Source: Gloeobacterales cyanobacterium ES-bin-313 (lineage in GTDB: Bacteria; Cyanobacteriota; Cyanobacteriia; Gloeobacterales; Gloeobacteraceae). From it: a stretch of 64,000 nucleotides of DNA. The stretch covers positions 1 through 64,000 of the forward strand of contig JACMLN010000182.1 in NCBI GenBank assembly GCA_014379585.1, in the 5' to 3' direction. Position 1 is the stretch's first letter, and every line of letters begins with the position of its first letter. Below the pieces are notes generated by a model, which was not told where the DNA came from, did no database searches, and worked only from the letters and a program-made list of their open reading frames with translations. Positions 51,480 through 54,969 of the stretch are shown here, piece by piece. The position numbers and the translations under genes were made by a program.

Positions 51480-52103
51480 ATGAACGATTTCGCGCCAACA
51501 TTTACTTTCTTGCCTGCTTTGATCGGTGGCTTCCTCGCTCTACTGGCTGGTATCGGCCTGGGTGCTTTTGCTGGATCCGCGACCCGCCCGCTGGTGCGTG
51601 GAGCCTCTTTGCCGATTGCCGGTGGGGTGGGTGTTCTGATTGGCATTGTTGCCACGATCGGTTCAATCTTTTTGGTGGTTGCCCTCCCTGCTTTACGCCT
51701 TCCTTTCTTGCCGATTGGCTGGCTCGCAGCAGGTGTGTTGTTTGGGGCAATCGTCGCTGTCTCGACCCTCGACTGGGCTGGAGTCACCCTTGCCGGTGGT
51801 TTGCTCACGACCTATGTGGCCACAACATTGACCTCTTTCTTCTTTTTAAGTACTTTGTTGCGCTTGGTGCCTCCATTTATCTGGAAACTCTTGCCACCTT
51901 TTTTAGTCAAGATTATTTTCGGCGCTGTGGCTGAGAGTGTCTTTGCGATGGCCGGTCTTGCAGTGCTCTGCTTAATTGGTTACATTGCAGCGGTGACAGC
52001 TCGCGTGGTGAGCCAATTCTTTACAGACAATGGTGGTGAAGGTAGCACACCGACAACGACACCTTACACACCACCAAGTTCCTCAGCAATCCCCATCGAC
52101 TAA
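51480..52103 (+). CDS. Hypothetical membrane protein
   Basis: The 207-residue protein has about five membrane helices (FLPALIGGFLALLAGIGLG, LPIAGGVGVLIGIVATIG, WLAAGVLFGAIVAV, AGVTLAGGLLTTYVATTL, AGLAVLCLIGYIAAVTA) and ends in a Thr/Pro/Ser-rich tail. No family is recognised. It lies four bases upstream of the alpha-E gene, so the two may be one unit. The ATG at 51480 is the first codon of the hydrophobic protein and fits. Confidence 0.6.
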   Translation: MNDFAPTFTFLPALIGGFLALLAGIGLGAFAGSATRPLVRGASLPIAGGVGVLIGIVATIGSIFLVVALPALRLPFLPIGWLAAGVLFGAIVAVSTLDWAGVTLAGGLLTTYVATTLTSFFFLSTLLRLVPPFIWKLLPPFLVKIIFGAVAESVFAMAGLAVLCLIGYIAAVTARVVSQFFTDNGGEGSTPTTTPYTPPSSSAIPID

Positions 52104-52107
52104 CCCC

Positions 52108-53109
52108 ATGCTCAGTCGAATCGCCGAATATCACTACTGGTTGGGTCGCTATATCGAGCGATCCGAGAATATTGCCCGCGTCGTCGGCGATTATTACCAG
52201 ACTCTTTTGGACATTGGCCAAGGAGTCGATACAGAGACAACCAGTCGGCGATGGGAGATGATTCTCGAAATCTCGGGGGAGAAAGAATCCTACCAGAGTC
52301 GCTACGACACAGTGCATCCCGCGCTCGTTGAACAGTTTCTTTCTTTTGATCGCTCAAATCCAAGTTCGATTCTCAGTTGCATCACCCAGGCTCGCGAAAA
52401 TGCCCGTGGGATCCGCGATCAGATTTCTTCTGAAGTCTGGCTTTGCCTCAACCGCTTTTATCTTGAGTTGCGCGAAGCCCAGTGGGAGGGGGATGCCGAT
52501 ACTGAGGCAATTAATTTCTACGAAAAAGTGAAAGAGCAGTCTCAGTTGATCGACAGTTTGGCAAACAGCACGATCCTCCACGATACAGGCTGGCTCTTTT
52601 TGCGCCTAGGGCGATTTATCGAACGTGCCGCCCAAACCGCGCGCATTTTGCAGGTGCGCTACCGCTACATCGATCCGCAATTAGCGCTTCCAGAACGCCC
52701 CATTGAAGTCCAACAGTGGCTCTCTTTGTTGCGATCTGTCAGTGCTTTTGAAATTTATAGCAAACTTTATCGAGCCACAGTTGCACCCATGTCCGTGGTG
52801 CAGTTGCTAGTGCTCAATCCACGCTTTCCGCGCTCCCTGCGCTTTGCAGCGAGCCAAGTCCAAGATATTCTGCGTGTATTGGCCACGAGTCAACCAGGCT
52901 TTTATAAGAGCGAAGCAGAACGTCTCGTTGGCATCCTCTGTTCTGAGCTGATCTATGGAACCTTGGCTGAGATCGAAGATGCCGGAGTGGTTCCCTACTT
53001 GATTCAAAAAGAACGGGAAATTGATACGATTGGCAACTATATTCATCATTTTTACTTCGCCTACAGCTTGCCTGGATTTGCCCAAGCGCAAAGTATGAGT
53101 CAGTCCTAG
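52108..53109 (+). CDS. Alpha-E (DUF403) domain protein
   Basis: This 333-residue all-helical protein begins MLSRIAEYHYWLGRYIERSENIARVV, the typical alpha-E start, with later DTGWLFLRLGRFIERAAQTARIL as the repeated half. The family is usually encoded next to a circularly permuted ATP-grasp protein and a transglutaminase-like gene and is thought to act in peptide bond formation or modification. None of those partners is here. The start at 52108 matches the family. The last four bases overlap the end of the convergent membrane-protein gene. Confidence 0.88.
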   Translation: MLSRIAEYHYWLGRYIERSENIARVVGDYYQTLLDIGQGVDTETTSRRWEMILEISGEKESYQSRYDTVHPALVEQFLSFDRSNPSSILSCITQARENARGIRDQISSEVWLCLNRFYLELREAQWEGDADTEAINFYEKVKEQSQLIDSLANSTILHDTGWLFLRLGRFIERAAQTARILQVRYRYIDPQLALPERPIEVQQWLSLLRSVSAFEIYSKLYRATVAPMSVVQLLVLNPRFPRSLRFAASQVQDILRVLATSQPGFYKSEAERLVGILCSELIYGTLAEIEDAGVVPYLIQKEREIDTIGNYIHHFYFAYSLPGFAQAQSMSQS

Positions 53110-54185
53110 CTCTTCCAATAACCCAAAAAGCCAATACCGTAGCCGCTAGCTGAACCAAGCAATGAGGCTCCAGCGTTGGTCAGAAAGCTTCTCCCACTGG
53201 CAGCACCAACGGTTGCACCGATCAAAGGATCTAGCAAGGTCGATTTGAGCATGTAGGCACTACTATCGAACCCGCCAGGGTTGTAAAGGAAGTTATGGGC
53301 AGACAGCGCCATCAGAATGTAGTAGCTCACAAATGCGGTACAGATAGCAACAAAACTACCCAGCCAGCCAACGATGGGACGATTACCAAAGGGCAATAGG
53401 CTCGCCCCTAGGCACAGAGGAGCCATGGTGACACAACTCATCAGTGCATACTCGACCATGGGCAGAGTATTTTTTTGCCAGGAGAGCAGCAGGGCAATCA
53501 ACACATCTTTGATGCTGTCCCGTACAAAGATTTGATTGCTCCAGACGGTTTTTGTGTAGGGATCGATTTGCCCACTAAAAACTTGATTGATTTCATTCGC
53601 CTCTTCTTGAAAAACACCTTGAGCGACTGAATCCAAGCTGCTGACGATTGCATTGGCTTCTGCAGCGTTATCCGCCAAACAGGTTTGAAAGCTAGCTTGA
53701 GGAAGGGCAGCACATTGGTTGTAGAGGCTACGAACCATCTGTTCCATGGCAATGCGGTACCCAGCCAGGCGGATCGTATTTTGGAGGTTTAAGCTATCTC
53801 CCGCTGCCCGTAACGAAATTTGATCGACGATCGTATAGGGCACAGTCCGCGCCGCATTCAAAAATTTGACCAAATTGCTCTGGGTATTCGGTGTATGGGC
53901 AATAAAAAAGACAACGAGCATCGGCCAAATCAGATCTGTCATGGCTGGAGTAATGTCGTCCTGGAGCAGACCGCGCAGATAAAATGCCCCCCAAAACATT
54001 GCACAAAAGACAGCGATGCCCCCGGCCACAAACTCTAGCCCAGCCCACAGTCCACTATCAAAAAGCTCTTGCCAGAGGGTGCTCCAGTAAGAACGGTTAC
54101 TTTGGGCAGCAGTGATGGCTAGATCTAAGAGATCTTGTGCAGCCTGCTGTGCGCTTGTACTTGGCAAAACTTGCAGAAGCAACAT
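53106..54185 (-). CDS. Polytopic membrane protein, VirB6/TrbL-like
   Basis: This 359-residue protein has an N-terminal outer segment (SAQQAAQDLLDLAITAAQSNRSYWSTLWQ), then membrane helices at LEFVAGGIAVFCAMFWGAF and LIWPMLVVFFIAH. A long middle loop with three cysteines (residues about 125-230) follows, and then a second cluster of helices (DVLIALLLSWQ, YALMSCVTMAPLCLGASLLPF, WLGSFVAICTAFVSYYILMAL). This layout resembles VirB6/TrbL channel proteins of type IV secretion, but the resemblance is in topology, not in clear motifs. It starts eight bases after the VirB5-like gene. The ATG at 54185 has GAAGGA upstream. Confidence 0.55.
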   Translation of the reverse strand: MLLLQVLPSTSAQQAAQDLLDLAITAAQSNRSYWSTLWQELFDSGLWAGLEFVAGGIAVFCAMFWGAFYLRGLLQDDITPAMTDLIWPMLVVFFIAHTPNTQSNLVKFLNAARTVPYTIVDQISLRAAGDSLNLQNTIRLAGYRIAMEQMVRSLYNQCAALPQASFQTCLADNAAEANAIVSSLDSVAQGVFQEEANEINQVFSGQIDPYTKTVWSNQIFVRDSIKDVLIALLLSWQKNTLPMVEYALMSCVTMAPLCLGASLLPFGNRPIVGWLGSFVAICTAFVSYYILMALSAHNFLYNPGGFDSSAYMLKSTLLDPLIGATVGAASGRSFLTNAGASLLGSASGYGIGFLGYWKS

Positions 54186-54192
54186 TTTTCCT

Positions 54193-54969
54193 TCACTCCT
54201 GAGTAGAATGCCATGCCATGATCTCGGCGGCGGCAAAAGCATTTGTAGTTGTATCTAAAATTTGCTGGGAGTGATTGTAGTACTGTTCACGTAGGTGGGT
54301 ATCAAGGGAATCGCTCACATCGGAGACGAGCATCTGTAGATTGCCCAAGTTATTGTCAAGGCCATTTTGCATCTGCAGCGTTTGCAGCGTTGTTGTGAGG
54401 GACGAAGTATTCACCAAGGCGATCTGTTGATTCATCAACTTCATCACATCTTGCGTCGAAGTGGCCTCGTTGGCTGCACTGGCATAGCTCGCGGCAAGAT
54501 CGGCAGACTCTTGAAGCTGGGACTGAATATTGTTGTTTTGTTCTAGAGTATTGGATTGCCCTGTTTCGCTCACTCGGTAGGTTTGAAAGGCACGGGTGAG
54601 GCTTCGATTTGAACTGTGGGAAATTAGTTGACCGACGAGGCTACGGGGCGCAAAGGGGCCGAGGTTATAGGGATTGTTCTGGGATTGATTACTGATCGAT
54701 AGACCAACGGAAAAAGTATCCGGCAAAGAGAGGGCACCGATGGCTTGATCCTCCGGTACTTGATCGCTTCCGTAAATGTTTGCTAACTGCGTGGAATATT
54801 CGCCAGGAATTTGGCTATAGGTAGTTGTCTGAGTCTGTAAAATGAAGTCGAGCAGCTGGTTGATGTAGCTGATCAGATCGTCGTCGGACCAAGCGCTCCC
54901 TGCTCCCAAAGTACCAACCATCACCAAGGCAACGACGACTGTTTTCAAAGGTTTTATTTTCACTGCCAC
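54193..54969 (-). CDS. Exported helical protein, VirB5/TrbJ-like
   Basis: The 258-residue protein has a signal peptide (residues about 8-28, TVVVALVMVGTLGAGSAWS) and a mostly helical mature part rich in Gln, Asn and Ser. It shows helices such as QLQESADLAASYASAANEA and DVMKLMNQQIALVNTSSLT and ends in NAFAAAEIMAWHSTQE. VirB5/TrbJ pilus-tip subunits look like this and are usually followed by VirB6/TrbL, as here. No other transfer gene is present. The start is a GTG at 54969. The family assignment is by architecture only. Confidence 0.5.
   Translation of the reverse strand: MAVKIKPLKTVVVALVMVGTLGAGSAWSDDDLISYINQLLDFILQTQTTTYSQIPGEYSTQLANIYGSDQVPEDQAIGALSLPDTFSVGLSISNQSQNNPYNLGPFAPRSLVGQLISHSSNRSLTRAFQTYRVSETGQSNTLEQNNNIQSQLQESADLAASYASAANEATSTQDVMKLMNQQIALVNTSSLTTTLQTLQMQNGLDNNLGNLQMLVSDVSDSLDTHLREQYYNHSQQILDTTTNAFAAAEIMAWHSTQE

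Follow-up and report, generated by a model that had tools for sequence, protein, structure and literature searches.

Introduction

Cyanobacterial type IV secretion systems (T4SSs) include a class named MPFc, in which pCC7120alpha carries virB4 as alr7206 and virD4 as alr7213 (PMC8600333). Relaxase-less T4SSs are known in cyanobacteria, where protein transport has been proposed as their use, and almost half of chromosomal T4SSs have no co-localised relaxase (PMC3158045). The scattered 'archipelago' T4SS of Rickettsia consists of five islets, is vertically inherited and has no VirB5 (PMC2653234), while machines of the R388 type have a VirB5 pentamer seated on a VirB6 pentamer, and VirB5 starts pilus growth and ends at the pilus tip (PMC12857230). 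Here, a gene pair at positions 53106-54969, on the minus strand of a 64,000-nucleotide stretch of DNA (the window; positions 1 to 64,000 of contig JACMLN010000182.1) from Gloeobacterales cyanobacterium ES-bin-313, is analyzed and compared with these systems. In all probability, the pair is the stalk or pilus-initiation module of a chromosomal, vertically inherited, relaxase-less and split T4SS of the cyanobacterial (MPF_C) type.

The system shares homologous parts in the same order, VirB5 and VirB6 slots included, with the MPF_C plasmid T4SSs of pCC7120alpha and of plasmid C of Trichormus variabilis. Those systems lie at a single locus on conjugative plasmids and come with a relaxase, whereas here three chromosomal blocks are found with no recognised relaxase, VirB9 is short or missing, and identity in VirB6 is only ~17-24%. 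The closest known arrangement is the Rickettsiales rvh T4SS, which is likewise scattered, vertically inherited and chromosomal, with VirD4; rvh, however, belongs to another T4SS class, has no VirB5 and has duplicated VirB4/6/8/9 (PMC2653234), whereas here the parts are single in ES-bin-313 and VirB5 is kept beside VirB6. In R388 Trw, TrwJ (VirB5) on TrwI (VirB6) is the proposed stalk or pilus-initiation unit, which fits the occurrence of the pair as a block of its own (PMC12857230), but the sequence of the VirB6-type protein described here does not match any VirB6 chain of solved structure. Helicobacter pylori ComB is also a chromosomal T4SS free of a transfer element, but it is without VirD4 and VirB5, both of which are present here (PMC12857230).

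The gene pair and its counterparts in T4SS operons

The pair encodes the proteins P0001 and P0002. Its features, in window positions, are as follows.

54193..54969, minus strand: VirB5-type gene for P0001, 258 aa, GTG start (open reading frame (ORF); orthologues in 4 relatives; hhalign)
53106..54185, minus strand: VirB6-type gene for P0002, 359 aa, polytopic (ORF; orthologues in 4 relatives; hhalign; tblastn to plasmids)
53511..53894, minus strand: hydrophilic middle of P0002, ~residues 98-225, with C158 and C169 (hydropathy and alignment columns)
54186..54192, minus strand: junction between the P0001 and P0002 genes, 7 bases, with an AGGA ribosome-binding motif (read from sequence)

Matches to P0002 were obtained in 12 of the 59 genomes of the comparison set, both numbers counting the ES-bin-313 genome itself (G000). 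The distant homologues, found in other cyanobacteria and on the second replicon of genome G003, show 17-24% identity in alignment; their genes lie downstream of one that encodes an exported helical protein and, at most loci, upstream of one that encodes a single-span protein. The same operons also encode a ~105-aa protein, a VirB4-type ATPase of 900-1000 aa, a TrbI/VirB10 protein (E 1.3e-10) and, wherever that stretch was fetched, a coupling protein (E 1.3e-28). This gene order is that of a T4SS. Profile-profile alignment (hhalign) of the P0002 orthologues with ten VirB6-slot proteins yielded a match over 319 columns (99.9%, E 1.3e-32), and that of the P0001 orthologues with ten VirB5-slot proteins a match over 151 columns (97.7%, E 1.7e-12). 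Control alignments of the P0001 orthologues with the VirB8 profile (0.13%), the VirB6 profile (0.24%), the reversed VirB5-slot profile (0.2%) and five column shuffles (≤0.1%) produced no match. On plasmids, a tblastn search with P0002 matched 73 records, 39 of them typed as conjugative; plasmid C of Trichormus variabilis has its genes arranged in this order too, and its annotation names TrbI/VirB10 as well as a T4SS DNA-binding protein but gives the VirB5- and VirB6-slot genes as 'hypothetical'.

The VirB5/VirB6 assignment is made because the pair is homologous to these slot proteins, and not through the Pfam VirB5 or TrbL models. The initial annotation of the window had offered searches with TrbL/VirB6 and TrbJ/VirB5 families as a check on the resemblance that it saw, and the check failed: Pfam and NCBIfam scans returned no VirB6-TrbL or VirB5-TrbJ match for either protein at E up to 10, and no meaningful score with any other model. 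It would have given up the resemblance had T4SS profiles found nothing and a different established family fitted; general libraries did lack a T4SS match, and neither protein is claimed by another family. Members of the operon at locus L021 likewise had no match to the curated VirB6-TrbL and VirB5-TrbJ profiles, and from library searches alone the pair would have stayed 'unknown'. Synteny within complete cyanobacterial T4SS operons, combined with the profile-profile matches, makes the sequence-based identification of the pair as VirB5/VirB6-type well supported, and bears out the VirB5-VirB6 architecture that had been proposed.

An exported helical Gln/Asn-rich protein followed by a polytopic one with a cysteine-containing middle loop, as first described, is what both ORFs encode. 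P0001 has an N-terminal basic and hydrophobic export signal (by eye), is helical, contains no cysteine and reaches a Gln plus Asn content of 20% beyond residue 28. P0002 shows four clear hydropathy peaks around its hydrophilic middle, in which C158 and C169 are invariant in 15/15 aligned homologues; these residues may form a disulphide, and the middle region is predicted to be periplasmic. The stop codon of P0001 (TGA, 54195-54193) and the ATG of P0002 (54185) leave 7 bases between them, so that the short gap noted earlier stands and its length of eight bases does not. The corresponding ORFs of the four relatives share a 4-base overlap, which suggests translational coupling of the pair. No relative of the pair was found in the viral contigs scanned, nor in a collection of genome contigs when P0002 was used as a single query; with a five-row alignment as query, the sole match in that collection was L031, from Aphanocapsa lilacina HA4352-LM1 (genome G005). 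At its other end, the P0002 gene overlaps a convergent 359-aa ORF (52030-53109) by 4 bases at the stop codons (53106-53109).

The other components in the ES-bin-313 genome

The remaining parts of the machine were searched for in G000 with operon-derived profiles of VirB4, the coupling protein (VirD4/T4CP), VirB10 and VirB8, each of which gave a single match:

C117:59059-61728: VirB4, 949 bits (NCBIfam TraC-F-type 5.8e-14, under that model's cut-off)
C129:1132-2631: coupling protein, 636 bits (Pfam TrwB_AAD_bind 1.3e-28)
C129:3841-5151: VirB10, 165 bits (Pfam TrbI 2.3e-9)
C129:5170-5865: VirB8, 174 bits

Walker A motifs are legible in both VirB4 and the coupling protein. Upstream of VirB4 on contig C117 lie VirB2- and VirB3-like genes, homologues of the two small genes that precede VirB4 in the operons, whose pilin and VirB3 roles are putative and assigned from position. 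Between VirB10 and the coupling protein, a protein X looks, by eye, like the operon protein that bears an M23 domain and holds the matching place; an M23 domain was not found in X itself. On the contig of the pair (C14) none of the four profiles had a match. The lack of an ATPase and of other channel parts, as stated in the initial annotation, thus holds for this contig and not for the genome, and the annotation's term 'orphan' is true of the window only; the VirB4-type ATPase that it proposed to look for elsewhere is the one on C117. With one match per part in G000, there is no second machine that competes for the pair.

The genes fall into three blocks, [B2 B3 B4], [B5 B6], which is the pair, and [B8 B10 (B9) X coupling protein], and these are consecutive pieces of the ancestral order B2-B3-B4-B5-B6-B8-B10-B9-X-coupling protein. 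In G001, which is a single contig, they lie at ~0.13, 0.66 and 2.19 Mb, and the transfer genes are not in one locus. Two sequences were considered and rejected as promoter motifs shared by the blocks: a 12-mer that in G000 lies beyond all 100 shuffles and is absent in G001 and G004, and an 11-mer in G004 that resembles part of tRNA genes.

Comparative genomics of the three blocks

The family is referred to by the name of Gloeobacter, as we take G001, G003 and G004 to be Gloeobacter violaceus, G. morelensis and G. kilaueensis, and G007, from the same order, to be Anthocerotibacter. The adjacent pair is kept in 4/5 other family genomes with 42-51% identity, the P0002 relatives at ~50% and a P0001 relative directly upstream, so that the conservation in relatives that the initial annotation had suggested examining is seen in four related genomes. 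These genomes (G001, G003, G004 and G005) present the same three blocks as G000, and nine components, the VirB2 and VirB3 homologues among them, are present in 5/5 pair-holding genomes. The resulting 45 copies (nine genes in five genomes) contain zero internal stops. All finite dN/dS values are ≤0.34, with ranges of 0.05-0.32 for P0001 and 0.07-0.23 for P0002; pairs involving G000 are often saturated at synonymous sites, the firm values being those among the other four genomes, and the VirB10 row of G005 comprises the C-terminal part only. The pair and the other blocks are under purifying selection.

Trees inferred for one gene per block (VirB4, VirB6 and the coupling protein) agree on the topology (G000,(G004,(G001,G003,G005))) and unite the family as a clade (100/100). 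They comprise 13, 15 and 9 rows, respectively, with only five family members, and in the VirB4 tree the outgroup branches are long. Rows that were fragments or lay outside the fetched stretches were omitted, namely G044, G014:C41, G058:C69 and, from G003, the two more divergent VirB4-like genes for VirB4, and G003:C2, G010:C77, G014:C43, G044, G046, G052, G058 and G002 for the coupling protein. Such congruence, with five family members in the test, is what shared vertical descent would look like. The conserved tRNA gene beside the third block also supports its vertical descent: tRNA-Asn(GTT) adjoins this block in 6/6 family genomes, at ~1.6 kb in G002 and ~140-160 bases elsewhere.

tRNA-Asn(GTT): L039:6014-6085; L040:8673-8745; L041:12518-12590; L042:12588-12660; L043:12632-12704; L044:1445-1518

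In the four Gloeobacter-like genomes, and not in G000, tRNA-Ser(TGA) adjoins the first block (4/5), and these neighbours hint that the ancestor was perhaps integrated at tRNA genes. Otherwise the surroundings of the blocks are poorly conserved, with hardly any matches outside the blocks in comparisons of up to 20 kb. An exception is a 396-aa protein without a Pfam family (L032:7093-8283), which precedes the virB2-B3-B4 block in 5/5 genomes with 51-54% identity. In Gloeobacter-like genomes, a peptidoglycan (PG)-binding/muramidase gene and small genes adjoin virB2 (L033:12302-13576; L035:13060-14352), and the PG-binding/muramidase-like protein is a candidate VirB1; no such gene was seen adjoining the G000 block. 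In G007, B2-B6 are together, and the coupling protein and B8-B10-B9 lie within ~20 kb downstream.

Two further observations concern individual genomes. Besides its split system, G003 carries a complete single-locus T4SS on its second replicon and two distant VirB4-like genes (L026; L037; L038). In G002, three adjoining ORFs past X, at the expected place of the coupling protein (L044:8086-11963), are TniQ/TnsC/TnsB-like by eye (Tn7-like).

Opposing evidence and alternative explanations

Several results weigh against the pair being a module of one split, relaxase-less machine. VirB9 is absent from the third block of G000, where ~19 bases separate VirB10 and X, and the VirB9 family profile found nothing convincing in the six frames of G000 (best E 0.395). 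In the other five family genomes VirB9 is a short form of ~155 aa, and the outer-membrane core is hence incomplete or altered. In one of the six family genomes, G002, which is fragmented (530 contigs), neither the pair nor VirB4 was seen; it retains VirB8-VirB10-VirB9-X on one contig and, on another, a coupling protein 77% identical to that of G000. Relaxases occur elsewhere in G003 (MOBP, four places), G004 (MobA_MobL) and G005 (Mob_Pre). No promoter motif shared across the three blocks emerged from 18 comparisons. At the structural level, a sequence search of the PDB with the P0002 family profile returned weak helical matches only and no T4SS or VirB6 chain, and AlphaFold models of the two proteins, built from two-row alignments, came out with low confidence, averaging 41.2 and 39.7.

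A possible but doubtful explanation is that the split apparatus conducts conjugation, serving mobilisable elements in trans or using a relaxase of another family. The coupling protein conserved here is of the DNA type, as its TrwB_AAD_bind score indicates, homologues of the machine reside on conjugative plasmids, and the relaxases of G003, G004 and G005 include one MOBP relaxase ~5 kb from the G003 pair. These relaxases, however, belong to three different families, as expected for passing elements, and the relaxase families PF01076, PF08751, PF03432 and PF03389, the four that were searched, gave nothing over cut-off in G000, G001 or G002.

The lack of a match to those four families in G000, the loss or shortening of VirB9, the tRNA genes beside the first and third blocks, reminiscent of integration at tRNA sites, and the missing pair and VirB4 of G002 would all suit the decaying remains of an integrated conjugative element that no longer serves any function, the 'relic' proposed in the initial annotation. 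That proposal is contradicted by purifying selection and by conservation in five genomes: 45 gene copies free of internal stops, dN/dS values well below 1 and legible Walker A motifs in the G000 ATPases make a relic improbable.

An apparatus for DNA uptake (competence) seems no less improbable. To our knowledge, the T4SS used for import by Helicobacter, ComB, has no relaxase. A T4SS without its own relaxase would in this respect be like ComB, but VirD4 and VirB5, which ComB lacks, are both of types conserved here (PMC12857230). Moreover, two Gloeobacter species are described as possessing every com homologue together with pil sets that are complete or nearly so, and this is the route by which cyanobacteria usually take up DNA (PMC7690421).

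That the pair has parted from the machine and now acts in a new role as a two-component surface assembly, as also once suggested, agrees with its having no conserved neighbours across the family, but is unnecessary, and it is highly improbable, since the family-type pair is always accompanied by VirB4, VirB8, VirB10 and the coupling protein (5/5 genomes), its tree matches those of VirB4 and the coupling protein, and no genome with the pair but without VirB4 was seen among the 59.

Discussion

The analysis establishes the identities of the parts, their single set in G000, purifying selection and congruent descent, and these support the interpretation of the pair as the stalk module of a split chromosomal T4SS. 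An ancestral single operon would have been split into three chromosomal blocks in the Gloeobacter family, with its internal order retained, and the products of the three blocks would come together as a single functional apparatus. If the R388 machine is taken as a guide, P0002, the VirB6-like protein, may serve as an inner-membrane and periplasmic platform, on which the VirB5-like P0001 would dock, initiate the pilus and finish at its tip; the separate block formed by the two genes fits one physical unit. VirB4 and the coupling protein, encoded in the other blocks, would power assembly and substrate entry. Without a recognised relaxase, the machine would be expected to move proteins, or DNA from other elements, and not its own DNA. 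A broader scenario appears to us about evenly balanced between right and wrong: in the first-branching cyanobacterial family, a captured conjugation machine would have shed the relaxase along with much of VirB9 and been divided into three chromosomal blocks. Ever since the common ancestor of the family it would have been maintained as a resident translocator across the envelope, most likely one that delivers proteins to adjacent cells, and the VirB5-VirB6 stalk would be the smallest part of it that cannot be split further.

According to one source, mobile plasmids have not been reported in early-branching cyanobacteria, Gloeobacterales included (PMC8600333), and in a second source chromosomal conjugative elements of cyanobacteria were found only in Cyanothece (PMC3158045). 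No report of a T4SS in Gloeobacter was found in the literature searched, parts of which were available incompletely and whose coverage leaves out most subscription journals. As far as these searches go, a split relaxase-less T4SS is new for the Gloeobacter family, while its parts belong to a known cyanobacterial T4SS class. If the interpretation is correct, 'hypothetical' proteins encoded on many cyanobacterial plasmids would gain a role, as VirB6. Scattered T4SSs may also hide in genomes annotated without any, going unnoticed because detection normally relies on co-located genes. For the Gloeobacter family itself, it would mean that a conjugation machine can turn into a stable chromosomal trait of free-living cyanobacteria.

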